Below are positions 2,467 through 30,901 of a DNA stretch of 35,947 bases, one piece after another. A program made the position numbers and the translations under genes. Numbering within the stretch: position 1 is the first letter of the stretch; each line of letters begins with the position of its first letter. The notes under the pieces were generated by a model. It saw nothing but the letters and a program-made list of their open reading frames with translations. It was not told the DNA's origin and did no database searches. This DNA comes from a bacterium (lineage in GTDB: Bacteria; CSSED10-310; JAJRTK01): positions 1-35,947 of the forward strand of contig JAJRTK010000388.1 in NCBI GenBank assembly GCA_024278345.1, written 5' to 3'.

Positions 2467-2515
2467 GCGAGCAGCGGCGGCCGGACGGCCGTTGATGGGA
2501 GCGGAACGCAACCCA
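2467..2515 (+). repeat. 49-bp structured repeat element, copy 1
   Basis: The copy has a 10-nt box GCGAGCAGCG, a 17-nt core GCGGCCGGACGGCCGTT that folds as a hairpin, and a 22-nt box starting GATGGGAGCGGAACGC. The same 10+17+22 layout recurs at 7946-7994, 15628-15676 (minus strand) and 30853-30901. This copy sits between the ArsR/methyltransferase regulator and ahcY. Confidence 0.85.
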
Positions 2516-2540
2516 AAAGAGGAACATCCATTTTGGTTTT

Positions 2541-2599
2541 GTCTTGCCCGCGATGGGTAGGATCATGATCGATTTCGTCTTGCCCCGGGAGGGTAAGAC
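2541..2599 (+). promoter_or_regulatory. Two tandem 9-bp hairpins in the ahcY leader
   Basis: A 36-bp unit is repeated twice (about two thirds identical) and each unit folds alike. Stem 1 is GTCTTGCCC (2541-2549) with GGGTAGGAT (2555-2563), using several G-T pairs. Stem 2 is GTCTTGCCC (2577-2585) with GGGTAAGAC (2591-2599), using one G-T pair. Both loops are 5 nt. A perfect palindrome GATCATGATC lies between them at 2561-2570. The second hairpin ends 26 nt before the ahcY ATG. It could be an RNA leader or a pair of protein-binding sites; I see no match to the known SAH riboswitch core. Confidence 0.5.
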
Positions 2600-2625
2600 T
2601 CCCCCCAATGAACGGAGAAAAGTTC

Positions 2626-3885
2626 ATGAGTGACAGGTTTAAGGTCAAGGATTTGGGCATGGCGGAGCACGGTCGCCTCAAAATTGAGTGGGCTGAGTCC
2701 AGGATGCCAGTTTTGATGGCCCTTCGCAAGAAATACGAAGAGACTAAGCCCCTGGCTGGGCAGCGGATTGCCGGGTGTCTTCACGTTACGAAGGAGACAG
2801 CGGTTCTGATTCGGACCCTTCGGGCGGCAGGCGCCGAGATCTCCTGGTCCGGCTGCAACCCGCTCTCTACGCAGGACGAGATCGCCGCGGCTCTGGCCGC
2901 CGATGGCATTTCCATTTACGCCTGGCATGGGATGAGTGTCGATGACTTCTACTGGTGCATTGATCGGACCCTTGACTTCAAGCCGACCTTGACCCTTGAT
3001 GATGGCGCGGACCTCATCATGCGCGTCCACACGAAGTTCCCCCATTTGTCCGACACGGTCATCGGCGGGACCGAGGAAACGACCACGGGCGTTCACCGGT
3101 TGCGCGCAATGGCCGATGATGGCGCACTTCTCTATCCCGTGCTGGCCATCAATGACGCGGAAACCAAGTGGGACTTCGACAACGTTTACGGCACGGGTCA
3201 GTCCTCTCTTGACGGCATCATTCGCGCCACCAGCGTGCTTCTTGCCGGCAAAAATTTCGTCACGGCCGGTTACGGTCATTGCGGCCGAGGCTGCGCCATG
3301 CGCGCCGCCGGAATGGGTGCCAGCACCATCATTACTGAGATCAAGGCCACGGCAGCCCTCAAAGCGACCCTCGAAGGGCACAAGGTCATGACCATGGACG
3401 AAGCAGCCAAGGTCGGCGACATCTTTATCACCGCCACGGGGATGAGAGACGTGATCCGGAAGCGCCATTTCCAGTCCATGAAGGATGGTGCCATCGTCTG
3501 TAACACCGGCCACTACGACTGTGAGATCAACATCCCCGAGCTCGAGGAGCTCGCCACGAAGGTTCGAACCATCCGGCCCAATTGCGAGGAGTTCACCCTG
3601 GCCGACGGTCGGCGCATCTATCTTCTGGCCCGAGGGCGGCTGGTCAATCTGGCGGCAGCCGAAGGGCATCCTTCCGAGGTGATGGACATGTCGTTCGCCA
3701 ACCAGTTCTTGGGCATGCTCCGCCTTGCCCGGAGCGGCAAGGATCTTTCCAACGGAGTCCACGACATCGAGGTGGCCCAGGATCAAGAGGTCGCCACCAT
3801 TAAGCTTGCGACGATGGGCCTCGAAATCGACAAGTTGACCGAAGAGCAGAGTGTTTACGCCACGGATTACTTGGCGGGAACCTGA
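2626..3885 (+). CDS. ahcY: Adenosylhomocysteinase
   Basis: This 419-residue cytosolic enzyme hydrolyses S-adenosyl-L-homocysteine to adenosine and homocysteine, removing the product inhibitor of methyltransferases. Visible family marks are CLHVTKETAVL (His53), the catalytic Lys181 and Asp185 in DAETKWDFDNVYGTGQS, the NAD-binding loop GYGHCGRG (215-222) and NTGHYDCEIN. The protein stops at LTEEQSVYATDYLAGT without the longer C-terminal tail ending in YRY that most eukaryotic and many bacterial enzymes carry. It is therefore the shorter form seen in archaea and some thermophilic bacteria. The ATG at 2626 is preferred over 2608 because GGAG lies about 9 nt before it. The gene follows the SahR-like regulator and is closed by a strong terminator. 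Confidence 0.97.
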   Translation: MSDRFKVKDLGMAEHGRLKIEWAESRMPVLMALRKKYEETKPLAGQRIAGCLHVTKETAVLIRTLRAAGAEISWSGCNPLSTQDEIAAALAADGISIYAWHGMSVDDFYWCIDRTLDFKPTLTLDDGADLIMRVHTKFPHLSDTVIGGTEETTTGVHRLRAMADDGALLYPVLAINDAETKWDFDNVYGTGQSSLDGIIRATSVLLAGKNFVTAGYGHCGRGCAMRAAGMGASTIITEIKATAALKATLEGHKVMTMDEAAKVGDIFITATGMRDVIRKRHFQSMKDGAIVCNTGHYDCEINIPELEELATKVRTIRPNCEEFTLADGRRIYLLARGRLVNLAAAEGHPSEVMDMSFANQFLGMLRLARSGKDLSNGVHDIEVAQDQEVATIKLATMGLEIDKLTEEQSVYATDYLAGT

Positions 3886-3954
3886 TCCGGGGAGGCCGGG
3901 ACGACGCGGTGCTCCAGGATCGCGACCTCTGCGGTGACGCACCGCTTTTCATGG

Positions 3955-3987
3955 CGGGCCATTTCGTTTGGGATGGCCCGTTTTTTT
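3955..3987 (+). terminator. Intrinsic terminator of ahcY
   Basis: The arms CGGGCCAT (3955-3962) and ATGGCCCG (3973-3980) form a perfect 8-bp stem with a 10-nt loop, followed at once by seven T residues (3981-3987). It lies about 70 bp after the ahcY stop and separates it from the convergent lipoprotein gene. Confidence 0.9.
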
Positions 3988-4041
3988 CTGGCTTCGCGGG
4001 GGTTTTTCGGTAAAACGCTTTCTTTTTGGGCCCTTTAGCCT

Positions 4042-4521
4042 TCACGTGCCGCCGATCTTCAGCTTTGGGGCGGGAGTGATGGTGAAATCGATCTCCGCCA
4101 GCAGCTCTTCGTCCATCTCCACGACAACGCGCCAGGGGCCGGGAAGATCGGAGGCCGCGGTTCCCGCCACGGGAAGGCGATGCCAGGTGGTCACCTTGGT
4201 ATGGTAGGCGCCGGTGGGCTGGATGAAGTAGTCGCCCGTGTCGTAGTAGAGGCTGCCGTCCGGGGCGTACCAACGCCACCTGAGAACGTGGAGGCGGGTG
4301 AGGGCACGGAGCCGGACCCAGCAGACAACTTCCTTGGCGGAGGTGGGAAAGCGGGTGGCCGCGCCCAGGGCTTCGAACCCCTCCTCCGATCCGGCGACGG
4401 CCCTTGCGACGACGGCCTCATCAAGGCTCGTGAGGAGTGAAGGGGTCACCACCGGTTTCCTCGATGCGCAGCCGGCCAAGAGCCAGGTGGTCATCACCAC
4501 GACGATCGATCTGTGCAACAT
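4042..4521 (-). CDS. Small lipoprotein, function unknown
   Basis: The 159-residue protein has an N-terminal lipoprotein signal: basic start MLHR, hydrophobic run, lipobox LAGC with Cys18. The mature part is a compact, probably beta-rich domain. It has aromatic-rich strands (VLRWRWYAPDGSLYYDTGDY, HTKVTTWHRLP) and a late strand GPWRVVVEMDEELLAEIDFTI. This pattern resembles the Ig-like or DUF2914-like domains of bacterial envelope proteins, but I cannot name the family firmly. The ATG at 4521 is preferred to a TTG at 4539 because the signal peptide starts naturally there. It is the last gene on the minus strand after the PEGA kinase and the membrane TPR gene, and may act with them in the periplasm. 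Confidence 0.75.
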   Translation of the reverse strand: MLHRSIVVVMTTWLLAGCASRKPVVTPSLLTSLDEAVVARAVAGSEEGFEALGAATRFPTSAKEVVCWVRLRALTRLHVLRWRWYAPDGSLYYDTGDYFIQPTGAYHTKVTTWHRLPVAGTAASDLPGPWRVVVEMDEELLAEIDFTITPAPKLKIGGT

Positions 4522-4620
4522 CCCCTGAAGCCGCTCCAACGCTATGGTTTACGGGTCGCCCGCCCCGCCAAGACGTGAGGCAAGTCGAAACCAAAGCAAC
4601 CATAGGCCGTTGGACGCAAC

Positions 4621-4661
4621 TTTGCCACTCCTCTCTTTTTGGGCAGGGAAAGTGTGGCAAA
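4621..4661. repeat. Inverted repeat between lipoprotein and membrane TPR genes
   Basis: TTTGCCAC (4621-4628) and GTGGCAAA (4654-4661) are perfect 8-bp inverted arms with a 25-nt loop. A further GGTGGCA follows at once. It could be an RNA stem in the mRNA of the minus-strand operon or an operator for the lipoprotein gene about 100 bp downstream. Confidence 0.45.
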
Positions 4662-4683
4662 AAGGTGGCAAGCCGCTAGTGTC

Positions 4684-4741
4684 AACCCTCACCCCTCGCC
4701 TCTCAACCCTAGCCCCTCACGCCTAGCCCCTCGCCCCTCAC
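4684..4741. repeat. Degenerate C-rich tandem repeat (G-rich on the mRNA strand)
   Basis: Imperfect units of the type CCCTAGCCCCTCGC run for about 58 bp and end inside the stop codon of the membrane TPR gene. On the minus (mRNA) strand this reads as four G-runs of three or four with loops of 3, 10 and 3 nt, so a G-quadruplex is conceivable directly after translation ends. Confidence 0.6.
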
Positions 4742-6102
4742 CGGTAGCGGTAGGTTATTTCCAAGTTGACAGTGTGGAAGGGGTTGCAGCCGTTCTTGCA
4801 TTGTTCGATAACATCTTTTCCAGGGCGGACGATGATTTCGATGACGCCGGGGCTGAACTTGTCGGAGAGCGTGGCGTTGAGCTGAGGGATGAGGTTGGGG
4901 TTGCTCTGGGAGTTTTCCCGGCGACCGATGGGAGAGCAGAAGGCCGGCGCGGGGCTGATGGCGTAGATGGGACGTTCCCTCTCGATGAGAATATCGGCTT
5001 CTTTGTCCTGCTTGTCGCTGGTCTGAGGCCCATAGTCGCCCTGCACTTCCACGAAGAGCGAGGCTTCCAAGATCTGGATGGCGCCCGGCTCGGCGGGGAA
5101 ATTGAAGCGGTGGACCGTCTCTCCGCCCTTGAAGGGATCGTTGGAGCCATCGCAGGACGGGACTTCCAGGATCTGTTCCCGGTAGACATATTGCGTGGGT
5201 GTTGGTGTTGGTGTTGGCGCGTGAGTGGGAGTGATCGTGGGGGTGACGGTGGGCGGTCGGTCTTTTTTGCCAGCTTTGGCCAGTAGTACCACGGCGACGG
5301 TGGCGGCAGCCCCGGCCCCGGCCCAGACGTACCAGCGCTTGTACCATTTTTTTCGGGGAGCGTGGCCCGGTGGCGTCGCCGGTGGCGAAAGAACGTGGAC
5401 GGGGTCGGCAAGCTCTCCCTCCTTGGGCCTCGTTCTTTGGCTTTTGAGCTCAGCCTGGACTTCACCGAGCATTGCCCGAAGTTTTGGCGGAAACTGGACC
5501 GGGTCAAGGTCGATCCCGGCTGGCACTCTGGTCAGGGCCTGGCGGAGGGAGGCACGCGCTTCGTCAGGTTGCTGGCGGATGCTCCGGATGAGGGCCAGAT
5601 AGATTTCGATTTCCGCCTGTTTTTCCGGTCTCGCGGCGGAGTCCAGGTTTGACAGGAGTGCGCTTTCAGCTCGTTCGTAATCTCCGTACCAGATGAGCTC
5701 TATGGCCTGATTGAGCGGCAGTATCCACGGCGTTGGAGTGGGGGAAGAATCCCCGGAGAAGTCGGGTGTGGGAGTCAAATTGAGCTTCGGGGCTTCGCCG
5801 GAGGGAGCATCGGACGTGGGAAAGGGCGTGGAGGCCGAGGGCCGCGCCGCGCTGGAGTTTCCAGGCGAAGGAGAAGGCATAGGCGTCCGCCATCCGGTGG
5901 GCGTTGGTGATAGAAGCGTCTGGACGGGATCTTCTCCCGCATCTCCGGTGGCTGCCCCACCGGAAAGATAGAGGGTGAACAGAGCGAGGGAAGCGAGGAG
6001 AAGGAGTCCCTGTCCTCTCTTCCCCGATTTTCCCACCGCAGCACCATGCGAGGCAGTCTGAGGCGCATTCCCACCAAGGAGGCACCTGCCGGATTCGATC
6101 AT
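4738..6102 (-). CDS. Membrane TPR-like protein with Thr-Pro linker and C-terminal domain of unknown function
   Basis: The 454-residue protein starts with a hydrophobic segment (about 31-51). A Ser/Thr/Pro-rich stretch follows, then a helical TPR-like part (about 122-219, with YGDYERAESALLSNL). A second membrane segment (about 258-278) is flanked by basic residues (RKKWYKRW and AKAGKK). A (Thr-Pro)n linker is encoded by GGTGTT units near 5197-5217. A C-terminal, probably beta-rich domain (from about 307) has four cysteines and ends in NLEITYRYR. The layout resembles envelope TPR proteins found next to PEGA kinases, but I do not recognise the C-terminal domain. The ATG at 6102 has GGAG 12 nt upstream; a TTG at 6120 is the alternative. 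It begins 44 bp after the kinase stop, so the two are probably co-transcribed. Confidence 0.75.
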   Translation of the reverse strand: MIESGRCLLGGNAPQTASHGAAVGKSGKRGQGLLLLASLALFTLYLSGGAATGDAGEDPVQTLLSPTPTGWRTPMPSPSPGNSSAARPSASTPFPTSDAPSGEAPKLNLTPTPDFSGDSSPTPTPWILPLNQAIELIWYGDYERAESALLSNLDSAARPEKQAEIEIYLALIRSIRQQPDEARASLRQALTRVPAGIDLDPVQFPPKLRAMLGEVQAELKSQRTRPKEGELADPVHVLSPPATPPGHAPRKKWYKRWYVWAGAGAAATVAVVLLAKAGKKDRPPTVTPTITPTHAPTPTPTPTQYVYREQILEVPSCDGSNDPFKGGETVHRFNFPAEPGAIQILEASLFVEVQGDYGPQTSDKQDKEADILIERERPIYAISPAPAFCSPIGRRENSQSNPNLIPQLNATLSDKFSPGVIEIIVRPGKDVIEQCKNGCNPFHTVNLEITYRYR

Positions 6103-6146
6103 CTTTGTCAATTTCTCCAAGTAGCGGATTTGAGGAAAGAGTTTTT

Positions 6147-7889
6147 TTAGGGAGCGTCATTTTCCAGGTCAATCATGACGGTTTTTCCACTGGAGATGGT
6201 CACTTTGCGCGTGGCGTCGAAGCCCGCGATTTCGTTGGTGAATCGGAGCTCGTAATCTCCAGGAGCCAGCTCCAGGGGGCTGCAAGGGCACTCCGCCAAC
6301 GGAGCATCGGAGCCGATTCGGGAAACTGTGATGGCCATCCTCCGCGGGGGCTTAATTCTCAGATATCCCGGGGGCAGTGGCGCCAGGGTGAGGCGCACCG
6401 TTTGGGGTGAGCTGACGGAGAGCCGGACTTTTTCTTGGGCCCGGTGTTTTCCGTCAAGGGAGACCGCGGTGACCGTGTGGAACCCCGGTCGCTTTCTGAG
6501 CTCGCGGTCACGGCCCTCACCCACGAGCTCGCCGTCGATGAGGATCTTTGCCGGTTGGTCGATGATGATCCTCAAAATGGCAAGTCGAGGAGTGGGCTTG
6601 GGCGTTGCCCTGGGGGTCGCCCCGGCGGTGAGGGGATCGGGTAGAGGCAGCGTAGTCGGGTTTCCGGCGGCGGCAGTGGGTTTCGCCTCGCCTCCCGTTT
6701 CGGGGCGTGTGGGTTCTGCCTTGCCAGGGAGCGTCGCGGGCCGTGCCTCTCCTTGCTCGGAAAGATCCCGCGCGGCAACGGAAGGTGTTTCCTCTGGCTG
6801 TGGCAGCCTTCCTTGGATCGGCGTTGCGTTTGAATTGGACGGCGGAAACATGGCCTGCATTCCCGGCCCGGAGAAGAGGACAGCCACGAAACTCGAAATG
6901 ACCACCAGGACCAGGCCCAGAGAGAGAGCCAGTACCAAGCGCTTGCCCGACTTCGGTGCCTGGGCGGGGAGGGAAACGGTTCGATCCGAGCGGCGGCATT
7001 CCTCGATGGCCTCCAGGGCTTCCCCGGCATTCCCATAGCGCTTCGAGGGGCTCTTGGCCAGCAGTTTCAAGACGATGCGATCGACTTCCGCAGGCACTTT
7101 TTCCAGGGTGGACGGCGCCGGTGGGAAGCGGTGGAGGATCCGTGCCAGGGTTTCGGAAAATTTCGAGGCCTGAAAAGGATGCTCGCCGGTGAGAAGCTCG
7201 TAGAGAACAACACCAAGAGCAAAGAGATCGGTCCGGGCGTCCACGGGCTCGCCACAAATTTGCTCCGGCGCCATGTAGGCCGGTGTTCCCTGAATGAAGC
7301 CGTCCGAGGCGGTCTTCGTGGAGACCGACTGAGTACTTGCAAGGGCGTAGGAGATCCCGAGATCCAGGAGTACCACGCGGCCGTCTTTGGTGCGAATCAG
7401 GTTCGAGGGCTTGATGTCTCTGTGGATAATTCCCCGGTGGTGCGCGTATTCCAGGCCCTTGAGGGTTTCCTTGGCGATCTCCAGTGCCAGCGGCCAGGGC
7501 TGTGGCGACTGTACCAGGTCGCCCAGGGAATCGCCTTCCACGTATTCCATGGCGATGAAGGCCCGCTTCCCGGCCGTTCCCACATCGTGGACCGTGACGA
7601 CGTTGGGGTGAGAGAGCCGGGCAGCCAACCGGGCCTCCTTGAGGAAGGAATGGCCGGAATCCCCTTCCAGCGGGAGCAGCTTGAGGGCTACGGGCCGACG
7701 CAGGAGAAGATCAAAGGCCAGATAGACCTCGCCCATCCCGCCTTCTCCCAAAAGATGGCGGATTTCGTAACGGTCGGCGATGGTCTTGGCATCGATCACT
7801 GGGGTTGTCTCGGAGGAAGAGAGTCCGATCCGCTTGGGGAAGCAGAGTTTGTCCAACCACAAACTAGAAGCTTTTGCCGCAGGGCGCAA
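6147..7889 (-). CDS. Transmembrane Ser/Thr protein kinase with two PEGA-like domains
   Basis: This is a Hanks-type kinase of up to 580 residues. The P-loop is GEGGMGEV (48-55), the catalytic Lys is K70 in VALK, the catalytic loop is HRDIKPSN (156-163), metal-binding Asp176 is in DLG (instead of DFG), and APE is at 207-209. One membrane helix (about 317-340) leads to a Pro/Thr-rich linker and two PEGA-like repeats (about 435-500 and 505-578, with ILIDGELVGEG and LELAPGDYELRF) that should lie outside the cytoplasm. PEGA domains are thought to bind surface structures, so this looks like an envelope sensor kinase. The start is unsure: the first candidate is TTG at 7889 with no clear ribosome site, and the kinase fold begins only at about residue 41. 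Likely partners are the two downstream genes. Confidence 0.93.
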   Translation of the reverse strand: MRPAAKASSLWLDKLCFPKRIGLSSSETTPVIDAKTIADRYEIRHLLGEGGMGEVYLAFDLLLRRPVALKLLPLEGDSGHSFLKEARLAARLSHPNVVTVHDVGTAGKRAFIAMEYVEGDSLGDLVQSPQPWPLALEIAKETLKGLEYAHHRGIIHRDIKPSNLIRTKDGRVVLLDLGISYALASTQSVSTKTASDGFIQGTPAYMAPEQICGEPVDARTDLFALGVVLYELLTGEHPFQASKFSETLARILHRFPPAPSTLEKVPAEVDRIVLKLLAKSPSKRYGNAGEALEAIEECRRSDRTVSLPAQAPKSGKRLVLALSLGLVLVVISSFVAVLFSGPGMQAMFPPSNSNATPIQGRLPQPEETPSVAARDLSEQGEARPATLPGKAEPTRPETGGEAKPTAAAGNPTTLPLPDPLTAGATPRATPKPTPRLAILRIIIDQPAKILIDGELVGEGRDRELRKRPGFHTVTAVSLDGKHRAQEKVRLSVSSPQTVRLTLAPLPPGYLRIKPPRRMAITVSRIGSDAPLAECPCSPLELAPGDYELRFTNEIAGFDATRKVTISSGKTVMIDLENDAP

Positions 7890-7945
7890 AGGAAACCCGG
7901 GTGCTGCTCCGACCTTGGGGCGGTAGATCGAGAGCGGCGAAAAAT

Positions 7946-7994
7946 GCGAGTGGCGGCGGACGGATTGCCGCCGCCGGGAGCGGAAGGCAACAGA
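7946..7994 (+). repeat. 49-bp structured repeat element, copy 4 (most diverged)
   Basis: The box GCGAGTGGCG, the 17-nt core GCGGACGGATTGCCGCC and a 22-nt box starting GCCGGGAGCGGAAGGC keep the 10+17+22 layout. With its flanks the core forms a strong GC stem (GGCGGCGG with CCGCCGCC). It lies just upstream of the kinase start; 7890-8093 holds nothing else I can identify. Confidence 0.75.
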
Positions 7995-8093
7995 AATAAG
8001 AAAAAGGGGTTCTGGAAAACTTGCTCCTAGACGAAGGGTACCATCGAAAAGGGAGCAGTCGGCGGGGATTCAATGGAGTTCGTCAGAGTTGCT

Positions 8094-11186: not shown

Positions 11187-14100
11187 GCCTTGTGCCCTCC
11201 AGTTTTCCAGTCGATGACCCGGAGCAGGCAGGGGATCACCACCAGGGTCAGAATCGTCCCGCCTACCAGCCCACCGATGACGACAAAGGCCATGGGCGCC
11301 CGGAGCTCGGCTCCGTCCCCCAACCCCACGGCCATGGGCAAAAGCCCGAGGACCGTGGTTGCGGTTGTCATGAGAATCGGCCGAAGGCGAACGGTTCCAG
11401 CTTCGATGAGAGCCTCGTCACGGCCTCTGCCCTCCCGCCGCAGGCGGACCGACTTGTCAGCAAGGAGAATCGCGTTGTTGACAATGATCCCCGACAGCAA
11501 GATGACGCCAAGGAGGGCCACAACGCTCACTGGGGTCGATGTCGCCCAAAGGACTGCCACCACGCTGACGAGGGCCAGAGGCACCGAAACGATGATCACC
11601 AGCGGGAGAAGGAAGGACTCAAACTGACTGGCCATGACCAGGTAGACCAGGAAAAGCGCGAGCCCGGCCGCGAAGAGCAGGCTTTGAAGGCTTGCGGCGA
11701 GGTCGTCCGATTGCCCGGCAATCGTGATGCGGACGCCAGGCGACGGCGAAGTTTCGGCCACGACTTCTTCCACGTCGGCCAAGACTTCGGAGTAGGGCCG
11801 GCCCGTCACTGATGCACCCACTTTGTGGAGCCGTTCCAGGTTGGCTCGGAGGATTTCTACCGGACCCAACCCAAGACGGAGGTCTGCCACGGACTCCGCC
11901 AGGATAGGTATCCCGTTGGAATCCGCCACCGGGAGGTTGGAGACATCAGAGGCATCGTGGCGATCCTCCCTTCGGGCGCGGACCCGGACGGGAATCTTCC
12001 GGTCTCCCCGCCAGATTTCGGTGGCGATTTCCCCTTCAATCGCCCCGCCGAGGCGATCGGCAATGGTACGGACATCGAGTCCAAGCCGCCGAAGTTTCTG
12101 CCGATCCGGCAGGATTTGGACTTCTGGAATCCCTCCTTCGGCGCTCGTCTCCACATCCGTAAGCCCGGGAATGCCCCGAATTCTCTCCGCAAGATCCTCG
12201 GCGACTCTGGCCAAAGTCGGTAGATGCCGGCCGCGGATCTCAAGCTCCAGAGGAACCCTGGTGCTCAGGGCGGAGGGGCGTTCTAACCGTGCCTCCAACC
12301 CCGGCTTGTGGGCCAAAAGGCCTCGGACGAGGGCCATGACCTGCAGCTCGGCGGAGCCCCGAATCCCCGGCCCCAGACGGATGTACAGCCGAGCCAAGTT
12401 TTCCCGAATCTGCTGACCCGCGGCGCCACCGGAACTGGAAGCTCCCACCAGAGCGACGACGGAATCGACCCCGGCCAACTCGCCGATCTCTCGCTCCAGA
12501 CGGCCCGAAAGCCTTTCGGTTGTCTCAAGGGATGTTCCCGGGGTCAGCTCCAAATGGGCCACGAACTGGCCTTGGCTCATCTCTGGAAGAAGCTCCCTCC
12601 CCAGGCTCGGAGCTATCCGGGCCGTGGCCCAGAGCAGAAGAATCGCACCTAGAAGAACGATGAACCGCCACCTGAGCGCCCAGCCCAAAAGAACGGGATA
12701 GGCCCACTGGAGGCCGAGGATCGCACTCTGCACAATCCATCTGGCCGGCGCGAGAATCAGACGCAGCAGTTTCAGCGGCATCGCCACAAGCCAACCTATG
12801 GCTCCTAGAATCAAGGTGAGGAGACGTTCCGCGCCCCGTGCGAGCCAACCTCCCTCTTTATCGCCTTCCATGGCCGGGATCGCCTTCACAACCTCGATGC
12901 CCGAGAGCATGGGAATCAGCGTCAGTGCCGCCACCAGAGAAGCCAGGAGGGAAAACGAAACCGTGAGCGCCTGGTCCACAAAAAGCTGCCCCGCGATCCC
13001 CGTGACAAACAGAACGGGAACAAAAACCGCCACGGTGGTGAGGGTCGAGGCGAAAAGCGCGCTCCCCACTTCTTCCGCGCCAGCGGCCGCGCGCTCAGCC
13101 GCAATCTCTTCGGGGGCCGTTTCCCAGCGCCGGTGGATCGCCTCGATAACCACAATGGCGTTGTCCACGAGCATTCCCACCCCCAGGGCCAGACCCCCGA
13201 GGCTCATGATATTGATGGAGACTCCGGCCAAAAACATCATCAAGAAAGAGGCAACAATGGAAATGGGAATGACAAGACCGATGACCAAGGTCGGCCGGGC
13301 GGAGCCCAAGAACAAGTAGAGGATCGCCACTGCCAGGAGCCCGCCCTTCCAGGCGGCGCCGAGGACTTCGTCGATGGCCTGCCGGATGAACTTCGACTGG
13401 TCGGAGATGGTGATGACGTGGAGGCCCCCAAACCGCTGTTTCAAAGAGCTTTCAAGTTGAGACAACCTCTTGCGAATCGCGGTGACGACGCCCACCGTAT
13501 TGGCGCCTGCCTCCTTGTACACCGCCAGCTCAAGCCCTTCACGGCCATTGACGTGGATGATCAGGTCTCGATCCTTGCTACTCCGCTTGACAGTGGCGAG
13601 ATCACCAAGTTTCAGCACTGCGCCAGAGCCCGGCCGAATGGGGATCTTCCGGAGATCCTCCAACCGCACGACCTCCGCCAACGTTCGTACAAGGAATTCC
13701 GTCTCTCCCTCCTCCAAAGAGCCACCGGTCACGTTGACATTTTCCGCGGCGATCCGCCCGGCCAGATCTTCCGCACCCAGGCCAAGCTGCGACAGTCGAA
13801 GTGGATCCACCTCCACCAGGATCTCTTCTTCCAGTCCGCCGCGCACTTCAACAGCCGCAACGCCATCCACCGTTTCGATGTTGCGGCGCAGATCGTCCTC
13901 CGCGAGGTCACGCAGCATAAAGAGGTCATCTACCCCGGTGAGCGCCACCCGGAGCACGGGTTCCAGCCCCGGATCGTAACGGAGCACCACGGGCCGCCCA
14001 GCCGCGTCTGGAAGATCCAGCATTTCCAGCTTTTCCCGCACGTCCATGGCCGCGAAGTCCATTCGCGTGCCCCACCCGAACTCCACCAGCACCTCGGAAA

Positions 14101-15571: not shown

Positions 15572-15950
15572 CCCCGGGATCCCTCTTTTCCGCGGCCAGA
15601 AACCGAGTTTTCCAGAAGGCCCTTCTTTGGGTTGTGTTCCGCTCCCATCGTGCGCAGGCCTGCGCACGCTACTCGCATCTTCAACACCCGATAGCTTTCT
15701 TTTCCCCAAAACAAAGCACAGCCCGACTCCCACAAACCCAAACATCTTTCGCCTCTGCCGTTCGACCCTCTTCGGCGGTGCTTTTTCCACGGAAGCTCCG
15801 CCACAGTAATTTGGCCTTTCCACTCACCAGAGGCAAAGAAGTTTCCGATTTTCCGCGGAAATCTGTTGGCCAATGGCCCACCGGCCGGCCCTCGTCGTCT
15901 CTCCGCAACCAACTTTAGAGCCGCCCCGGAACGGGCGGGCCTTGGCTGGC
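15572..15950. other. Intergenic region between adaptor and TMTC-like genes
   Basis: About 380 bp lie between the end of the TMTC-like gene and the preferred adaptor start. It holds copy 3 of the 49-bp element and a near-palindrome GATTTTCCGCGGAAATC close to 15850. In the adaptor frame one stretch reads MFGFVGVGLCFVLGKRK (from 15745), which could be a remnant of an original N-terminal signal now separated from the rest by the repeat. I see no separate gene here. Confidence 0.5.
15628..15676 (-). repeat. 49-bp structured repeat element, copy 3
   Basis: Read on the minus strand, this copy has the box GCGAGTAGCG, the 17-nt core TGCGCAGGCCTGCGCAC and a 22-nt box starting GATGGGAGCGGAACAC. With the preceding G the core is a perfect 18-bp palindrome. 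The bases at core positions 1-3 and 14-16 differ from the other copies in matching pairs. The copy lies inside the reading frame that extends the adaptor gene upstream. Confidence 0.85.
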
Positions 15951-23227: not shown

Positions 23228-23701
23228 CTACGCACTGGGATCACGGCCCGGCACGCAGTTGTACGCTTCGTGGGGACTGACCGTGAGTTCGACCCGCTTC
23301 CGGAGACTCTGAACCTCCGCCTTCAACGATTTCGGCAGGCTCTCCACGTACGCCTCTCTCCGGGCCGGAAGAATCTTCAGGCTCTCCAGGGTATCCCTGA
23401 GCATAGGTTTTGGCGCGATTTTTCGCGCGGGCTGATCCAGAGCCCAGAGAGCCTCCGCGCAGTCCGCGTCGAGTTCCATCAACTCGAGGAGCGCCCGCTT
23501 CCCGACCTCACGCTCACCAACTCCCAATCGATCCAAGGTTCGAAACAGGATGAGGGATTCCAGGCGCTCTTCTTCCAGTACTTGGCGAAGATCATGGGGC
23601 ATGCCCGGCGCCTGTTCGACAGTCAGGCGCTTGAATCGCCTGGAAGGGAACCTGTTTCTTGCCGACTTTTTCTTTTTTCTTGCCGACTTTTTCTTTTTCA
23701 T
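23228..23701 (-). CDS. Small lysine-rich helical protein, unknown function
   Basis: The 157-residue protein starts MKKKKSARKKKKSARN, a duplicated basic heptad produced by a 21-bp direct repeat. The remainder is mostly charged helix (LRQVLEEERLESLILFRTL, VGKRALLELMELDADCAEAL, SLPKSLKAEVQSLRKRVEL). I do not recognise a family. The basic head could bind nucleic acid or acidic lipid. ATG 23701 has AAGGA about 10 nt upstream; the frame upstream of it is not protein-like. It ends in TAG, and the same frame stays open for many more codons after that stop, including a plausible helix (see findings). There is no signal peptide or membrane segment. Confidence 0.6.
   Translation of the reverse strand: MKKKKSARKKKKSARNRFPSRRFKRLTVEQAPGMPHDLRQVLEEERLESLILFRTLDRLGVGEREVGKRALLELMELDADCAEALWALDQPARKIAPKPMLRDTLESLKILPARREAYVESLPKSLKAEVQSLRKRVELTVSPHEAYNCVPGRDPSA
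23658..23699. repeat. 21-bp tandem repeat in the gene start
   Basis: Two units of 21 bp (23658-23678 and 23679-23699), each CTTGCCGACTTTTTCTTTTT plus one base, encode the doubled KKKKSAR at the N-terminus of the small basic protein. The poly-A/T tracts in it are prone to length change. Confidence 0.8.
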
Positions 23702-23786: not shown

Positions 23787-23866
23787 ACCGGCAAGATCTC
23801 GGCCCCACGATTCCGCCCGAGACGATTGGAAAGCAAAAGCATTGCGATTTGATGGATGCCCACTCC
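23787..23866. repeat. Dispersed repeat, copy 2 (partner at 105-182)
   Basis: This 80-nt stretch matches 105-182, with blocks ACCGGCAAGAT, AAAGCAAAA and ATTTGAT conserved and a net length difference of two bases. It is the only recognisable feature in the 490-bp gap 23702-24189 between the small basic protein and the SLOG gene. Confidence 0.6.
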
Positions 23867-24189: not shown

Positions 24190-24774
24190 ATGAGAAGCAA
24201 AATCGTCGGAGTCATGGGGGCTTCGGCCCATGCTCATCCAGAATTGTCCCGCCCCGTGGGCCGGCTCATTGCCCGGATGGGTTTTCACCTATTGACCGGC
24301 GGTGGTTCCGGCGTCATGGCCGCGGTTGCCAAGGCCTTCTGCCAAGTAAAAGACCGTACGGGGGTGAGCATCGGGATCCTTCGGAGCCTCTCCATGCCTA
24401 TCTGGAGCCCGCCGGGCACCCCGCTGGAGTATGCCCGGCCCTACGTGAACGAGTGGGTGGAGATCCCCATTTTCACGCACCTTCCCCTCAGCGGGGAACA
24501 GGGCCGCGATCCCTTGAGCCGAAACCATCTCAACGTCCTGAGCGCAGACATCCTCGTCGCGCTCCCCGGCGGGGCTGGGACCTGCTCGGAGGTCTCCCTC
24601 CGAGTGGATTACGGTCGATCCGTGATCCTCTTCCTTGGGAGCGAAACCATCGACGGGAAGGGGGCCGACGTCGTTGCCCGGCTGGCCAAAAAGACCGGTC
24701 AGATCACCATCTGCCAAGGGATTGAATCCCTCCGCAAGGCCATCGGGGATTGTGATGGCGGGTCGCGACCCTAG
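24190..24774 (+). CDS. SLOG/LOG-family nucleotide-binding protein (MoCo-carrier or TIGR00725-like)
   Basis: The 194-residue Rossmann-like protein has GGGSGVM (37-43) followed by an Ala-rich helix, and PGGAGTCSEV (126-135), the two nucleotide- or phosphoribose-binding loops of the LOG/SLOG superfamily. Members range from cytokinin-type phosphoribohydrolases to molybdenum-cofactor carriers. The second loop has Ala-Gly-Thr-Cys rather than the PGGxGTxxE of canonical LOG enzymes with a distal catalytic Arg, so I would not claim phosphoribohydrolase activity. A cytosolic location is expected. ATG 24190 has GGAG at 6 nt. It converges with the ALDH gene 36 bp away; the gap holds a GGCCCCGGGGCC palindrome but no T-run. 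Confidence 0.8.
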   Translation: MRSKIVGVMGASAHAHPELSRPVGRLIARMGFHLLTGGGSGVMAAVAKAFCQVKDRTGVSIGILRSLSMPIWSPPGTPLEYARPYVNEWVEIPIFTHLPLSGEQGRDPLSRNHLNVLSADILVALPGGAGTCSEVSLRVDYGRSVILFLGSETIDGKGADVVARLAKKTGQITICQGIESLRKAIGDCDGGSRP

Positions 24775-24810
24775 GCGCAGGCCCCGGGGCCCGCCGTTGA
24801 TTAGGCCCGC

Positions 24811-26364
24811 CTACCCAAATTTGATCCCCTGAGCCAGGGGCAGTTCCTTGCTCCAGTTGACGGTGTTCGTTTGGCGCCGCATATAAGCTTTCCAGGCATC
24901 CGACCCCGATTCGCGGCCGCCGCCTGTTTCCTTCTCGCCGCCGAAGGCGCCGCCGATCTCCGCGCCACTGGTGCCGATGTTCACATTGGCGATGCCGCAA
25001 TCGCTGCCGCGGTGGGAAAGGAAGAGCTCCGCTTCCCGGAGGTGCTGGGTGAAGATGGAGGAGGAAAGCCCCTGGGGCACATCGTTGTGGAGCGCCATGG
25101 CCTCTTCTATTTCGGCCACCGCCTCCTTCGGGGAGGCCGAGGCATTGCCATAACCAATGATGTAGAGGATCGGCGCGAAGGTCTCTTCTTGAACGATGGC
25201 GAACTCGTTTTTCGCCGTGGCGATACAGGGCTGGACGTAGTGGCCGCCCGGGTATTCCGGTCCGTCGAGGGTCTCGCCCCCGAAGAGGATTTCTCCGCCC
25301 TCTTCCCGGACTTGCCGTATAGCCTTCTGGAGATCGGTCCCGGCGCTCTTGGTCACCAGGGGTCCCATGAGAGTTTCGGGCTTCCGCGGGTCGCCGATCT
25401 TCACGTCGGCGTAGGCCCGAACAAGCCGAGTGACGAGCTCTTCCCGCACCGACTCGTGGACCAGGATCCGCCGGGTACTGGTGCAACGCTGGCCGGCCGT
25501 GCCCACCGCGCCAAAGAGAATTGCCGGGAGCGCAAGATCCAGGTCGGCATGCGGGGTCACGATAATGGCGTTGTTGCCACCCAGCTCCAGGATGGTTCGG
25601 CCAAGGCGCTTCCCCACCACCGACCCGACCCGGTACCCCATCTTGCAGCTTCCCGTGGCGGAGACAAGAGGGATTCGCTTGTCGTGGAGAAGCCGGTCCC
25701 CCACGATGGATCCCTTGCCGATGCTGAGCGAGAAGATCGCCGGATCCACGCCGTTTTCCAAGCAGACCTCGTGGGCAATCTTGGTGCAGGCGATGGCGGT
25801 GAGGGGCGTTTGGCTCGAGGGCTTCCAGAGGACACTGTCGCCGCAGACAGCGGCGAGGGCCGTATTCCAACACCAAACTGCCACGGGAAAGTTGAACGCG
25901 CTGATGACACCCACGACGCCAAGGGGATGCCACTGCTCGAACATCCGGTGATCCTGCCGCTCGGATGTCATGGTCAGACCGTACAGTTGCCGCGATAGGC
26001 CGGTGGCGAAGTCGCAGATGTCGATCATCTCCTGGACTTCGCCTTCTCCCTCGGCCAGGATCTTCCCCATTTCCAGGGTGACCAGAGCGCCTAGCTCAGT
26101 TTTCTTTTGGCGCAGCCGGTTGCCGAGCTTGCGGATCAAGTCGCCTCGCTTCGGGCCGGGCACGGTGCGCCAGTGGAGAAACGCCCTGTGGGCGCCCTCG
26201 ACGATCTGGTCGTATTCTCCTTCCGTGACCTGTTGCACAGTTCCGATGACGGAGCCGTTGATGGGGGTCGTGACTTCGAGTTCGGGGCCGGAACCGATCC
26301 ATTCGCCGGCGAAGCCACCGGGATTCAACGACTCGATTCCAAGGGCTTTTAGAACATTATTCAT
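24811..26364 (-). CDS. amaB: Aldehyde dehydrogenase of the ALDH7 type (aminoadipate-semialdehyde / piperideine-6-carboxylate dehydrogenase)
   Basis: This 517-residue NAD(P)-dependent enzyme oxidises a semialdehyde to an acid. Visible features are SAFNFPVAVWCWNTALA and WKPSSQTPLTAIA (cofactor binding), the general base Glu in LELGGNNA (about residue 258) and catalytic Cys294 in GTAGQRCTSTRR. The C-terminal blocks ANVNIGTSGAEIGGAFGGEK and ETGGGRESGSDAWKAYMRRQ are typical of ALDH7/AmaB enzymes of lysine catabolism. The gene symbol is based on these blocks, and no other lysine-degradation gene is nearby. ATG 26364 has GAGG at about 8 nt; the TTG at 26388 is less likely. It is divergent from ygiQ across about 290 bp. 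Confidence 0.9.
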   Translation of the reverse strand: MNNVLKALGIESLNPGGFAGEWIGSGPELEVTTPINGSVIGTVQQVTEGEYDQIVEGAHRAFLHWRTVPGPKRGDLIRKLGNRLRQKKTELGALVTLEMGKILAEGEGEVQEMIDICDFATGLSRQLYGLTMTSERQDHRMFEQWHPLGVVGVISAFNFPVAVWCWNTALAAVCGDSVLWKPSSQTPLTAIACTKIAHEVCLENGVDPAIFSLSIGKGSIVGDRLLHDKRIPLVSATGSCKMGYRVGSVVGKRLGRTILELGGNNAIIVTPHADLDLALPAILFGAVGTAGQRCTSTRRILVHESVREELVTRLVRAYADVKIGDPRKPETLMGPLVTKSAGTDLQKAIRQVREEGGEILFGGETLDGPEYPGGHYVQPCIATAKNEFAIVQEETFAPILYIIGYGNASASPKEAVAEIEEAMALHNDVPQGLSSSIFTQHLREAELFLSHRGSDCGIANVNIGTSGAEIGGAFGGEKETGGGRESGSDAWKAYMRRQTNTVNWSKELPLAQGIKFG

Positions 26365-26407
26365 CGGGTGCCTCGCGATCTTTGACAAGGTTGTAGGTCA
26401 AGCTTTA

Positions 26408-26455
26408 GGCCTTGGTTTGTCGCGCGATCCAGGCCATGGTGTGTCGGGCGGTACA
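26408..26455. repeat. 24-bp tandem repeat upstream of the ALDH gene
   Basis: Two adjacent 24-bp units begin GGCCTTGGTTTGTCG (26408) and GGCCATGGTGTGTCG (26432) and agree at about 19 of 24 positions. They lie about 45 bp before the ALDH start, in the divergent ALDH/ygiQ gap. They are a candidate tandem operator. Confidence 0.5.
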
Positions 26456-26655
26456 CCCTCGATCCTGGCGCGATGATTGGGTCTGGTGCCAGAAAGAAAG
26501 TGTCGTGCCGTTTCTACCAACTGTTGCGCTGCAAGCCAACTGTGTCGGAGACTGACTCGCTTCGCGTTTTCCAGGACCTTCCCCCCGCAGGCGCCGGCCC
26601 CTTACCCCGAAAGGTGCCCTGCCACCAGGGTTTTTGGAGGTCATAAGGAGGAGAA

Positions 26656-28620
26656 ATGTCCATTCGAGGGATGAACAAGGGGCGTCCCGCCATGTTTCGC
26701 GAGCCCGAGTCCGCGGAACAGGAGAGGGGACTCCTGGAGGATCTGTCGCTCCAGGAGATCCATGGGCGAGCGCAGCCCCTTCCCATGACGGTTGAGGAGA
26801 TGCGAGGTCGCGGTTGGGATGGTGTTGACGTGGTGATAGTTACGGGGGATGCCTATGTCGATCATCCCAGTTTCGCCATGGCGATCCTTGGCCGCGTGCT
26901 GGAGGCTGGCGGATTTCGTGTGGGCATCGTCGCGCAACCCGACTGGCGGTCCTGCAAGGACTGGCGGCGGTTCGGCCGGCCACGCCTCTTTTTCGCCATC
27001 AGCGCGGGCAACATGGACTCGATGATCAACCACACCACGGCGAGCCGGAAGGTTCGGAACCGCGATGCCTACTCGCCGGGCGGCAAAATCGGGCGCCGCC
27101 CCGACCGCGCGACCCTGGCCTATTGCCAGAGGGCGCGGGAAGCCTACAAGGGTGTCCCCGTCGTGGCCGGCGGGGTTGAAGCCTCGCTGCGACGGCTAGC
27201 CCACTACGACTACTGGAGCGACAAGGTGCGCCGCTCCATCCTCCTCGATTGCAAGGCGGACCTTTTGGGATTCGGCATGGGCGAAGAAACCATTCTTGCG
27301 ATCGCGCGCCGCCTGGACGGCGGAGAGAGCGCGAAGGATCTGCGCGGCATGCGTGGATTGGCTTATACCCTTGGCGCATCCGAGGTGCTTCCCGCCGATG
27401 CACTGGAGATCCCAAGCTACGAGGAGGTTCGAGACGACAAGTTTGCCTTTGCGGAGGCGACGAAGATCGCTCACAACGAGACGAACCCTTACAATGCCCG
27501 GCGCCTGGCGCAGCGCCATGGACGACAAACCGTGGTCTGCAATCCTCCCCGCTTTCCCCTCACCGGCGAGGCCATGGACAGGATCTACGGGCTTCCTTAT
27601 ACTCGGCGGCCGCATCCCCGCTATCGCGAGGCAATCCCCGCCTACGAGATGATCAAAGATTCCATCACCATCATGCGAGGCTGCTTCGGCGGTTGCACCT
27701 TCTGCTCCATCACCGCACACCAGGGACGGATCGTCCAGTCCCGGAGCCGGGAATCGGTTCTTGGCGAAATGAAAAAGATGGCGGTCGATGCCGACTTCAA
27801 GGGCGTGGTCAGCGATATCGGCGGGCCCACGGCCAACATGTACCAGATGGTCTGCTCCAAACCGGAGGTGGAGGCCATTTGTCGCCGTCAGTCCTGTGTT
27901 CACCCGAAGATCTGCAAGCTGTTGCGCACGGATCACCAGCCCTTGATCGACCTCATGGAATCGGCCCGGAAGGTTCGAGGAATCAAGAGGATCATGGTGG
28001 CCAGCGGAATCCGCATGGACCTGGCCCGGCGCTCGCGCCGCTACATGCGCGATCTCGTGCGGCACCACGTCGGCGGGCATCTCAAGGTTGCGCCCGAGCA
28101 CAGTGATCCCGGCGTTCTTGCCCGCATGCGCAAGCCCGGCACCGAGGATTTCGAGAAGTTTGCCGAGCTGTTTGAACGCGAATCGATAAAGGCGGGCAAG
28201 AAACAGGTTCTCATTCCGTATTTCATTGCCGGCCACCCCGGCAGCGATCTCCATGCGATGATCGACTTGGCACTTTTCCTGAAACGAAACGGCTATCAGC
28301 CGGACCAGGTGCAAGACTTCATTCCGGCTCCCTTCGACGTGGCGACGGCGATGTATCATACAGGGCTCGATCCCTTCACCAAGAAGCCGGTGGCCGTCGC
28401 CAAAGGCCTCCGGGATCGCAAGCTCCAGCGGGCCCTCATGCGATTCTTTGCGCCAGAGAACTATTTCGACGTCCGCAAAGCGCTGATCCAGGCAGGCCGC
28501 CGCGACCTCATGGGAAAGGGCAGGGACGCGCTCATCCCCAATACTCCGCCCAGGGAAGCCATCATGAAGCGGCGGCACGAGGCCAATCTGCTGCGATCCC
28601 GGAGCCGAACATCTTTCTGA
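26656..28620 (+). CDS. ygiQ: YgiQ-family radical SAM protein
   Basis: The 654-residue protein has the UPF0313/YgiQ layout. The N-terminal domain is VDVVIVTGDAYVDHPSFAMA, RVGIVAQPDWRSCKDWRRFG and SAGNMDSMINHTTASRKVR. The radical SAM core has Cys343, Cys347 and Cys350 in CFGGCTFCS binding the [4Fe-4S] cluster. A C-terminal domain follows with APEHSDPGVLARMRKPG, QVLIPYFIAGHPGSDL and DFIPAPFDVATAMYHTGLDP. The biochemical role of the family is not established. The length is slightly below the 700 or more residues of many homologues; the missing part is the variable basic tail. ATG 26656 has an excellent ribosome site (AAGGAGGAGAA). It ends 5 bp from the end of the convergent GT4 gene. Confidence 0.95.
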   Translation: MSIRGMNKGRPAMFREPESAEQERGLLEDLSLQEIHGRAQPLPMTVEEMRGRGWDGVDVVIVTGDAYVDHPSFAMAILGRVLEAGGFRVGIVAQPDWRSCKDWRRFGRPRLFFAISAGNMDSMINHTTASRKVRNRDAYSPGGKIGRRPDRATLAYCQRAREAYKGVPVVAGGVEASLRRLAHYDYWSDKVRRSILLDCKADLLGFGMGEETILAIARRLDGGESAKDLRGMRGLAYTLGASEVLPADALEIPSYEEVRDDKFAFAEATKIAHNETNPYNARRLAQRHGRQTVVCNPPRFPLTGEAMDRIYGLPYTRRPHPRYREAIPAYEMIKDSITIMRGCFGGCTFCSITAHQGRIVQSRSRESVLGEMKKMAVDADFKGVVSDIGGPTANMYQMVCSKPEVEAICRRQSCVHPKICKLLRTDHQPLIDLMESARKVRGIKRIMVASGIRMDLARRSRRYMRDLVRHHVGGHLKVAPEHSDPGVLARMRKPGTEDFEKFAELFERESIKAGKKQVLIPYFIAGHPGSDLHAMIDLALFLKRNGYQPDQVQDFIPAPFDVATAMYHTGLDPFTKKPVAVAKGLRDRKLQRALMRFFAPENYFDVRKALIQAGRRDLMGKGRDALIPNTPPREAIMKRRHEANLLRSRSRTSF

Positions 28621-28625
28621 TCTTC

Positions 28626-30344
28626 CTATCTTTCCAGCATGTCGTGCCAGATTTCTAGAAGCCGTTCCGCAATCCGGTCCCAATCGTACTGTTCCAGGAT
28701 CAATTGTCGGCCGCGGACCGCCAGGCTTTGGTGAAAAGAGCTATTTCTTAGGAGTTTTTGGATTGCGGCGCACCAGTCGGCGGTCTCGCGGGCGATGCAG
28801 ATCTCGACGCCGTCCCGGCACTCCAAGCCCTCGGCACCTACGGGCGTCGATACGACTGGTAGGCCCGAGGCCAACGCCTCGAGAATCTTAATCCGAGTGC
28901 CGGAGCCCACGCGGATGGGCGCCAGGAGGATTTGATGCTCCCGGTAAAGGGGTCGCAGATCGTTTACCTCCCCCACCAGGTCTACGCCGCGAACCCGGCA
29001 AATCCTCGCAAGATCTGGCCCGCCACCGCTTCCCGCGACGGTGAGGAAGAGCTCTGGATCTTGGCCCAGGAGCTTGGGCCAGATCTCCGAAAGCAGCCAC
29101 TCCAAGCCGTCGAAGTTGGGCAAATGGTCAAAATTGCCGACAAAGAGCAGCCTCTTGTTGGTGACGGGTCGAGGTGGCGGCCGGTATTCATCGGGATCGA
29201 CACCGTTGGGCACCACCCGGATGCGCTCCGGATGCGCCAAGAAGCCAGCCAGGAAGCGGGCATCTTCGTCCGAAACCGTCTGGACGGCGTCGGCCCGCCG
29301 GATGACCGACAACTCGTAGCGGAGCTGCCGCATCCAGTCCAGACGGCTGCTCCCGAACCAGCGGTCGTGCCTGAATCTGCGGTGAAACCCCGCCGCCCTC
29401 CGCCGTGCCCGTTCCCGGAAGGTGACAACGTACTCCGCCAGGCCGACTTTGACTCCTGGCAGCGCGCAGAAAGCGTATTGACCCGCCTCAGTGTATTCCA
29501 GTTGCAGAATGTCGATGGATCTCTCCTTCAAGATCTCCGAAATCCGCCTCCGCGCCGGGCTCGAGGAGTACCAGCGCGCCGCCGGAGCCTCCAGCCCCAA
29601 AAAGTCTGGCGCCAGCTCCGGCTCCCAAGGGAAAATTTCAACGGTGCTGGCCAGAGTGGCCAGGGCCTCTTCTTGGATGGGATCTTCCTTCCGCCGGCTC
29701 AACAGGAACAGGTGAATCTCGCAGTCCAGGGCGACCCGGCGAAGGAGGTTCCAAAGGCGTGCCCCGCCGCCGTGAAAGGGCGGAAAGATCGGATGTGGAG
29801 CGACGATGAGAATCCGCGGGCGCTTGGTCCGTAGCCCCCGGGCTTGCGGCTGCCGAGTCTCCACCCAAGGTGGGACAGTTTGTGTCAACTCAAGAGTAGT
29901 CGATCCCGGGAGCTTTGTCCGGCCGGTGCTGCTGGCGGCGGGGACGCCTACGCCATGCTCGGTGGTCGTTCGGGGATTCCGGAAACCCAAGGGTTGGCGT
30001 GTGGGCCTTCCGGCCCGCACGCCAGGGACTTCGCCCTGCACCCACCAGGGATCATCGCTCCCTGGATCCACATCTTTGTAAGGATTCGCGTATGGGCCTT
30101 CCGGCCTGCATGTTACGCTAAAGAGGCCATCACTCTTCCAGATATTGGCTTGGATCACGGTCCTGGCGGGTTTCCGTAGAAAAGATCGAACCTGGCGAAA
30201 GATCAGCTCCCGAGCCGTTCCCGCCATGAGAATGATCCAGCCCAAGATCCTGGCACCGGTGGCGAAACTGACGGCAGTGCGCCAGAAAACGTGAGGGTAG
30301 CGCCGCAGAAGCCTCCATAGACGGGGCAGTTGGTTCACGCTCAT
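28626..30344 (-). CDS. Glycosyltransferase family 4 protein with a repeat-bearing N-terminal extension
   Basis: This is a 572-residue protein. The GT-B fold starts only at about residue 170 (RPRILIVAPHPIFPPFHGGG). The C-terminal domain carries LLFVGNFDHLPNFDGLEWLL, APIRVGSGTRIKILEALASG and LPVVSTPVGAEGLE with the acceptor/donor Glu. These are marks of the GT4 branch in exopolysaccharide and PEP-CTERM-type loci. The first about 70 residues (LPRLWRLLRRYPHVFW, then a hydrophobic stretch) look like a genuine membrane-associated segment. Residues about 75-115 are low-complexity Pro/Gly/Arg text encoded by hairpin repeats at 29997-30118. ATG 30344 has GGAG 10 nt upstream; the frame is open to 30482. 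The repeat may have inserted in frame, or may have joined two formerly separate parts. It is part of the right-hand glycan cluster. Confidence 0.85.
   Translation of the reverse strand: MSVNQLPRLWRLLRRYPHVFWRTAVSFATGARILGWIILMAGTARELIFRQVRSFLRKPARTVIQANIWKSDGLFSVTCRPEGPYANPYKDVDPGSDDPWWVQGEVPGVRAGRPTRQPLGFRNPRTTTEHGVGVPAASSTGRTKLPGSTTLELTQTVPPWVETRQPQARGLRTKRPRILIVAPHPIFPPFHGGGARLWNLLRRVALDCEIHLFLLSRRKEDPIQEEALATLASTVEIFPWEPELAPDFLGLEAPAARWYSSSPARRRISEILKERSIDILQLEYTEAGQYAFCALPGVKVGLAEYVVTFRERARRRAAGFHRRFRHDRWFGSSRLDWMRQLRYELSVIRRADAVQTVSDEDARFLAGFLAHPERIRVVPNGVDPDEYRPPPRPVTNKRLLFVGNFDHLPNFDGLEWLLSEIWPKLLGQDPELFLTVAGSGGGPDLARICRVRGVDLVGEVNDLRPLYREHQILLAPIRVGSGTRIKILEALASGLPVVSTPVGAEGLECRDGVEICIARETADWCAAIQKLLRNSSFHQSLAVRGRQLILEQYDWDRIAERLLEIWHDMLER
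29997..30118. repeat. Hairpin repeats inside the GT4 reading frame
   Basis: An 11-bp stem GCGTGTGGGCC/GGCCCGCACGC (29997-30022) is followed by a copy (30034-30071) of the repeat at 30707-30743, with the outer hairpin CCAGGGA/TCCCTGG. A second, weaker version of the first stem follows (GCGTATGGGCC at 30088-30098 with GGCCTGCAT). The middle copy differs from its intergenic partner mainly in the palindrome centre. The repeat block is flanked by two versions of the same stem and keeps the frame open. Confidence 0.75.
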
Positions 30345-30477
30345 GAAACGTTTTCTCCAGAATCGCTCATCGTGCCGGCCCTTCGTGATTTGCAGCTTGG
30401 AAGCCGATTTGAGAACCTCCTTCGGCCTTTCGGAAATCGGTGGTATTCTCAGGCATCCACGCAAAACGGGGCCGTTG

Positions 30478-30562
30478 GACATTCCTTTGCCCCTGCGGGG
30501 GGACGTGCCCGAGTAAAATCAGGGCGTGCCCCTTGGTAGACATTCCTTTGCCCCCGCAGGGG
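30478..30562. repeat. 24-bp direct repeat with small hairpins
   Basis: GACATTCCTTTGCCCC plus GC-rich end occurs at 30478-30501 and 30539-30562, 61 bp apart, with two differences. Each ends in a small hairpin (CCCC-TGC-GGGG; CCCC-CGCA-GGGG). It is part of the 30345-30880 repeat region, which has no gene I can support. Confidence 0.7.
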
Positions 30563-30668
30563 AACGCCTTGCTCCGCTCGGCGGGAGGGAACGCCTTGCT
30601 CCGCTCGGCGGGAGGGAACGCCTTGCTCCGCTCGGCGGGAGGGAACGCCTTGCTCCGCTCGGCGGCTG
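30561..30668. repeat. 27-bp tandem repeat, four units
   Basis: Four units starting GGAACGCCTTGCTCCGCTCG begin at 30561, 30588, 30615 and 30642. The first three are identical in what I read, and the last diverges in its final bases. The period of 27 keeps any reading frame open (AERSKAFPP on minus, NALLRSAGG on plus), which explains spurious open frames here. Copy number is likely to vary between strains. Confidence 0.9.
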
Positions 30669-30669
30669 T

Positions 30670-30743
30670 CCGGGGACTCTGTCCCCGGTCCCCTGGCAGG
30701 GCGTTGCCCTGCACCCACCAGGGAGCTAGCTCCCTGGACCCAC
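30670..30743. repeat. Triple-hairpin repeat, intergenic copy
   Basis: Three hairpins stand in a row: CCGGGGAC-TCT-GTCCCCGG (30670-30688), GCAGGGC-GTT-GCCCTGC (30696-30712) and the perfect 20-bp palindrome CCAGGGAGCTAGCTCCCTGG (30718-30737). Positions 30707-30743 match 30034-30071 inside the GT4 gene. The arrangement resembles repeats found widely between bacterial genes. Confidence 0.85.
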
Positions 30744-30852
30744 TCCTTTGTGCGCTCCACGGCTTTCTCTTTGTTTCCTTGTAGTGTCCCGCCTTACGTG
30801 GATACCCGTCATTCTCCTTGTAGGGTGGGGGCTGAATAGGGCGGGGACAGTG

Positions 30853-30901
30853 GCGAGTAGCGGCGGACGGATGGACGCCGATGGGAGCGGAACGCAACCC
30901 A
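30853..30901 (+). repeat. 49-bp structured repeat element, copy 2
   Basis: The box GCGAGTAGCG, the core GCGGACGGATGGACGCC and a 22-nt box starting GATGGGAGCGGAACGC match copy 1 base for base in the 22-nt box. The ATG inside this box (30881) is in frame with the GT2 gene that follows and could be mistaken for its start. Confidence 0.85.

Follow-up and report, generated by a model that had tools for sequence, protein, structure and literature searches.

The window (the whole stretch of DNA analysed here, 35,947 nucleotides long) contains four copies of a short structured element, and the genes downstream of them are unrelated to each other. A sequence-only reading of this DNA had described the copies as 49 bp long, each composed of a 10-nt box, a 17-nt core and a 22-nt box. 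Their coordinates and strands were all verified, and the features that we assign to them, with the scores of covariance model R1 for the cores, are the following.

2454..2522, + strand: conserved core of copy 1 (78.3 bits, E 7e-22); the 49 bp described earlier are 2467-2515
7892..7899, + strand: tentative left half of the target-site duplication of copy 2, GAAACCCG, degenerate (read from the sequence and the 8-bp length rule)
7900..8045, + strand: whole element of copy 2, diverged, 146 bp, from GGTGCTGCTCC to GGGTACCATC
7933..8001, + strand: conserved core of copy 2 (72.9 bits); 7946-7994 in the earlier description
8046..8053, + strand: tentative right half of the target-site duplication of copy 2, GAAAAGGG, degenerate (read in the same way, from the sequence and the 8-bp length rule)
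15621..15689, - strand: conserved core of copy 3, with flipped stem pairs (74.6 bits); 15628-15676 in the earlier description
30840..30908, + strand: conserved core of copy 4 (73.7 bits); 30853-30901 in the earlier description

When the 3' box alone is searched with at most three mismatches, exactly these four matches are found in the window, against 0.02 expected. Copy 2 aligns with a young copy of the element over its entire length (70%), and the two halves of its duplication are identical at 5 of 8 positions; the outer parts of copies 1 and 4 have decayed. The gene located 3' of copy 1 encodes an S-adenosylhomocysteine hydrolase (Pfam match AdoHcyase), and copy 3 lies ~50 bp 5' of an HlyD/CusB-like efflux gene that runs in the same direction (Pfam HlyD_D23; gene calls).

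The source genome (6.06 Mb in 550 contigs, 87.9% complete) contains hundreds of copies, most of them intergenic, rather than only the four in the window or a plain coding segment. A strict sequence pattern detects 184 copies genome-wide, split 95 to 89 between the two strands; its reversed form detects none. A covariance model built from 55 copies gives at least 150 matches in the genome, each of at least 67 bits. As an unbiased sample we used twenty contigs whose selection took no account of the element (L094-L113, 204,447 bp), in which the covariance model finds 26 copies above 40 bits, i.e. ~1 per 8 kb. Extrapolation gives a genome total of ~770 copies (Poisson 95% range roughly 500-1,100), corresponding to nearly 2% of the genome if every copy is full length.

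The core has a well-defined fold. With the first G of GGCGAG as position 1, the pairs are 2-37, 3-36, a tandem G.A at 4.35/5.34, then 6.33, 7-32, 8-31, 9.30, and 10-29 up to 16-22/23, enclosing an apical loop with an invariant GG. In this fold, GGGAG lies opposite the GCGAG of the 10-nt box instead of folding within the 22-nt box; the second hairpin that had been proposed for the latter (TGGG/CCCA plus GCG/CGC) is not conserved, and positions 42-43 and 48-49 vary. The compensatory changes reported at core positions 1/16, 2/15 and 3/14 are real, and correspond to pairs 12-27, 13-26 and 14-25. In the 94 gapless copies, 13-26, 14-25, 8-31 and 16-22 are among the strongest covarying pairs and 12-27 is also prominent. 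Lower in the stem, pair 3-36 is C-G with 7 double changes, the tandem G.A is present in 140 of 150 copies, position 6.33 can be G.G, G-C, C-G, G-U or A-U, pair 7-32 wobbles, pair 8-31 covaries between A-U and G-C, and 9.30 is mostly G.A.

Among 149 distinct aligned copies, double changes that preserve pairing occur at 12 of the 13 pairs. The covariation score is 0.339, compared with 0.146 for a shuffled null that leaves the relatedness among copies in place and at most 0.092 for slid structures, and 79.8% of the cells are pairing versus 66.8% (shuffled) and at most 54% (slid) in this alignment, which had been fitted to the structure. Two analyses made without such fitting, MAFFT alignment A1 and the gapless 94-copy test, agree with the fold, and the flips between G-C and C-G and between A-U and G-C are present in several subfamilies. 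The 10+17+22 spacing is exact in the four copies of the window; family-wide, there are shorter cores and also versions that are 21-34 nt longer and whose apical part contains an additional hairpin. Cores of 62-64 nt (L048, L090, L111, L046, L101, L044) have the extra apical arm GGGGAACTCGCGCCRCAGGCGYGGGTCG, which is common to several subfamilies and resembles a second hairpin that the element has acquired. Outside the core, a search of all copies for a long-range stem between the flanks gave no general signal and only a weak one near -18/+25; flank pairing stands out in young copies alone, in which it corresponds to the terminal repeat. When folded in full, the young element is no more stable than shuffled sequences (z -0.03). 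A likeness of the GAG/GGGA internal loop to bacterial 5S loop E or to a k-turn was considered and rejected, since the strand order or a missing bulge did not match.

The sequence-only reading had left it open whether selection acts on RNA or on a cruciform. Selection on structure is borne out by the covariation, and the wobble pairs disfavour the cruciform: G.U outnumbers A.C by 132 to 9, and still by 45:8 after removal of the commonest wobble pair. A cruciform would show no such polarity and, hence, the functional fold is that of one strand. The folded form is probably RNA of that strand; single-stranded DNA of the same strand is an alternative, but not the simplest reading.

A conserved internal loop, a covarying stem, a variable apical arm and a sense orientation 5' of genes are also what a ligand-sensing riboswitch or a ribosomal-leader class, independent of transposition, would display. 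We nevertheless regard this explanation as extremely improbable. The element is present in hundreds of copies in one genome, and searches of 40 other genomes, of the same phylum and of one GTDB scan gave no secure copy outside the source genome; target-site duplications are present, the downstream genes in the window are unrelated, and the element in the window and three further loci have no match to the Rfam covariance models at gathering score. The search of plasmids, phages and viral contigs also gave no match. A Chloroflexi match and one in genome G035 were rejected; both lack the CAAC that lies 3' of the hairpin, and for Chloroflexi the number of matches fits chance. A match of 26.5 bits in a 9.2-Mb genome of the same phylum (G003, contig C120:7598-7664, minus strand, L144), which has an A-U pair at 6-33, is possibly a remote relative, its score barely exceeding the noise level that genomes of other phyla give.

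Pairwise comparison of copies shows sharp edges of homology, one ~32 nt 5' and the other 112-118 nt 3' of the model start, and young copies begin with GGTGGTGCTYC and end with AGAGCACGACC. Of 35 full-length copies, 24 measure 144-150 bp, and 10 measure 168-172 bp and contain the extra arm. The ends form imperfect terminal inverted repeats of ~22 bp (left end GGTGGTGCTCYASCCCTAGGGC; right end, reverse-complemented, GGTCGTGCTCTTCTTTTAGGGC). Direct repeats flank these 35 copies at a length of 8 bp only, with 67.9% identity versus 40.3% expected (SD 2.9%); 14 of the 35 have perfect 8-bp target duplications, such as AGAAGATC, CGTTTTCG and AAAATCCG, and the target consensus is about CC-SRAATTCS-GG. 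Apparent duplications of a variable 11-13 bp proved to be exactly 8 bp long when the ends had been set. The element thus has the properties of a miniature inverted-repeat transposable element (MITE): it is short and non-coding, has many dispersed copies of defined length, and possesses terminal inverted repeats and a duplication of fixed length.

The mobility of the element, which the sequence-only reading had suggested in the form of a REP-like element, is well supported by the 8-bp target-site duplications and the terminal inverted repeats; it is the REP form, with movement by a RAYT (an IS200/IS605-type tyrosine transposase) and a GTAG beside the hairpin, that lacks support, and we consider it very unlikely. 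The proposed search for such a gene did identify one RAYT-like gene (NF047646, 67 bits, under the cut-off of 80), a diverged copy of the element (L093 13199-13267, 45.7 bits) overlaps the 3' end of this gene, the only RAYT-like one found, and G(T/C)AG precedes the stem in about half of the copies. However, the tag is not kept: position 8 is A in 48 and G in 46 of the 94 gapless copies and is base-paired with position 31. Terminal inverted repeats together with duplications of exactly 8 bp suit a DDE element, and RAYTs are not known to leave an 8-bp duplication. Moreover, the RAYT-like gene holds a different REP-type palindrome: it contains two in-frame copies of GGGCGGGTTCGGAACCCGCCCCTAC, a GTAG-type REP in reverse complement (gene at L032 1012-1737, contig C390; L093 about 12511-13236), and these REPs are thus located inside coding sequence. 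In REPs, the tags have been described as lying outside the base pairing (PMC3733652). The REP/REPtron systems resemble the present element in having hundreds of intergenic copies with a hairpin, whereas the present element has no unpaired GTAG tag and does have target duplications and terminal inverted repeats.

Three contig ends point to a possible source of the mobility. Each carries the left terminus of the element (GGTGGTGCTC..CCCTAGGGCA); behind it come a promoter-like TTGACA...TAGGAT, a ribosome-binding site and an ATG. The reading frame starts with MPSSKCEPREGEFQRWQPP; 19 residues are readable, and the interior and the right end of the IS are absent from the assembly. These ends are probably those of an autonomous insertion sequence (IS) that was collapsed by the assembler, and from its position behind the shared terminus we infer that the open reading frame encodes a transposase. 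The candidate IS would be bounded by GGTGGTGCT and AGCACNACC. In the analysed contigs, no convincing assembled IS was found that has these ends and is flanked by an 8-bp duplication, and a partial match in contig C474 yielded no IS. Together, the terminal inverted repeats, the exact 8-bp duplications and the IS candidate sharing a terminus indicate a DDE-type MITE rather than a REP/RAYT element. Young copies with perfect duplications, many of them at contig ends, indicate recent activity. Many contigs (C45, C59, C154, C156, C187, C549, C456, C184 and others) end inside or beside young copies, so that the fragmentation of the assembly probably stems in large part from the element and its IS. 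Duplications of 8 bp are produced by several IS families, including IS1, IS66, ISL3, IS1595 and IS256, and the element begins with GGTGnTGCT, which is reminiscent of IS1; the comparison with these families covers the duplication length and the terminus.

The fate of the core in old copies bears on whether it serves transposition or the host. In 78 copies, the flanks resemble the young consensus no more than background, yet the 18 conserved core positions contain a mean of 0.6 mismatches, a number close to that in younger copies; core mismatch does not correlate with flank decay (rho -0.02). These copies have kept the G at two diagnostic flank positions (68-72% versus 33%), which indicates that they are decayed full-length elements. 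Few cores score in the 20-40 bit range of the covariance model, in which neutral decay would be expected to leave a tail. The copies were, however, found via the core model, by which fully decayed cores could be missed.

It is conceivable that the element is purely selfish, its core being kept only for transposition, as a site for the transposase, a host factor or an RNA cofactor, and with host genes unaffected. The signs of recent activity are in line with this, and for many bacterial MITEs a host function has not been demonstrated. Yet DDE transposition depends on the ends and not on a hairpin in the middle, only one strand is the folded form, and copies with decayed ends, which are presumably immobile, retain an intact core along with compensatory changes; we therefore judge a purely selfish element to be unlikely. 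What we consider likely is that a MITE of ~146 bp spreads a structured RNA module into transcripts, and that its core is under selection as RNA. A DDE-type IS with the same terminus would mobilise the MITE in trans, making 8-bp target duplications. The module (~41-70 nt) would consist of the covarying hairpin with its conserved GG loop, closed by the tandem G.A internal loop between GCGAG and GGAGC, and, 3' of the hairpin, the conserved CAAC and an A-rich tail. The MITE would have carried it into intergenic regions, mostly along the direction of transcription, after which the core would be selected as RNA in 5' or intercistronic transcript regions while the transposon ends decay.

The gene context fits this RNA-module reading. 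Context was counted from covariance-model copies, a regex-based recount being rejected for false positives inside genes. Among the 150 matches listed, the copies in gaps between codirectional genes are in sense orientation in 53 cases and antisense in 17 (p=2e-5), and the split between divergent and convergent gaps roughly follows availability. Young copies lean likewise (10 sense versus 4 antisense, a bias that is not significant), and the sense bias may therefore come from insertion preference. The median distance from the core to the next sense gene is 105 nt, an approximate value based on a simple codon-usage gene caller, which places the core usually within a leader or an intercistronic transcript. 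Based on its conservation, strand and orientation, we infer that the core acts as RNA in transcripts; protein binding, effects on processing or stability, and an antitermination-like activity are possible actions. The most economical mechanism would be that a host factor recognises the RNA module and the IS spreads it. As a more far-reaching and tentative possibility, about which we are rather doubtful, the transposon may have built a genome-wide RNA regulon, in which one structured regulator lies before hundreds of genes and its core has been selected after the ends died. The core of this predicted regulon would probably be bound by one host protein, or act on RNA polymerase or the ribosome. 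The few downstream genes examined for a shared function revealed none that was obvious.

The NEMIS/Correia elements of Neisseria are intergenic MITEs of about 107-155 bp with terminal inverted repeats, whose transcribed structure has been proposed to affect neighbouring mRNAs (PMC2229807). They are similar to the present element in size, intergenic location, terminal inverted repeats and the existence of two size classes that differ by an internal block; however, they have TA-type ends, whereas the present element has 8-bp duplications, GGTGGTGCT ends and a conserved structure in its inner core. The bcr1 element of Bacillus cereus, ERIC and RUP are likewise dispersed, short and structured, a comparison at the level of description. 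They are named as MITEs in PMC3733652.

The suspicion that bacterial MITEs seed regulatory RNA structures is an old one, and has usually relied on thermodynamic predictions for a small number of copies. In the present family, copies are numerous enough for real covariation statistics, the wobble polarity reveals the folded strand, and the core outlives the signals of mobility, whereby it becomes directly testable whether a selfish element has been domesticated into an RNA regulon.

Two other observations concern the window. Positions 23351-23492 (+ strand) match the radC RNA motif below threshold (29.9 bits; cut-off 40). The region 5' of copy 4 (~30670-30830) shares blocks of 150-280 bp (67-90%) with regions upstream of copies in other contigs (L034, L039, L081 and L087), and these blocks are another dispersed repeat family.
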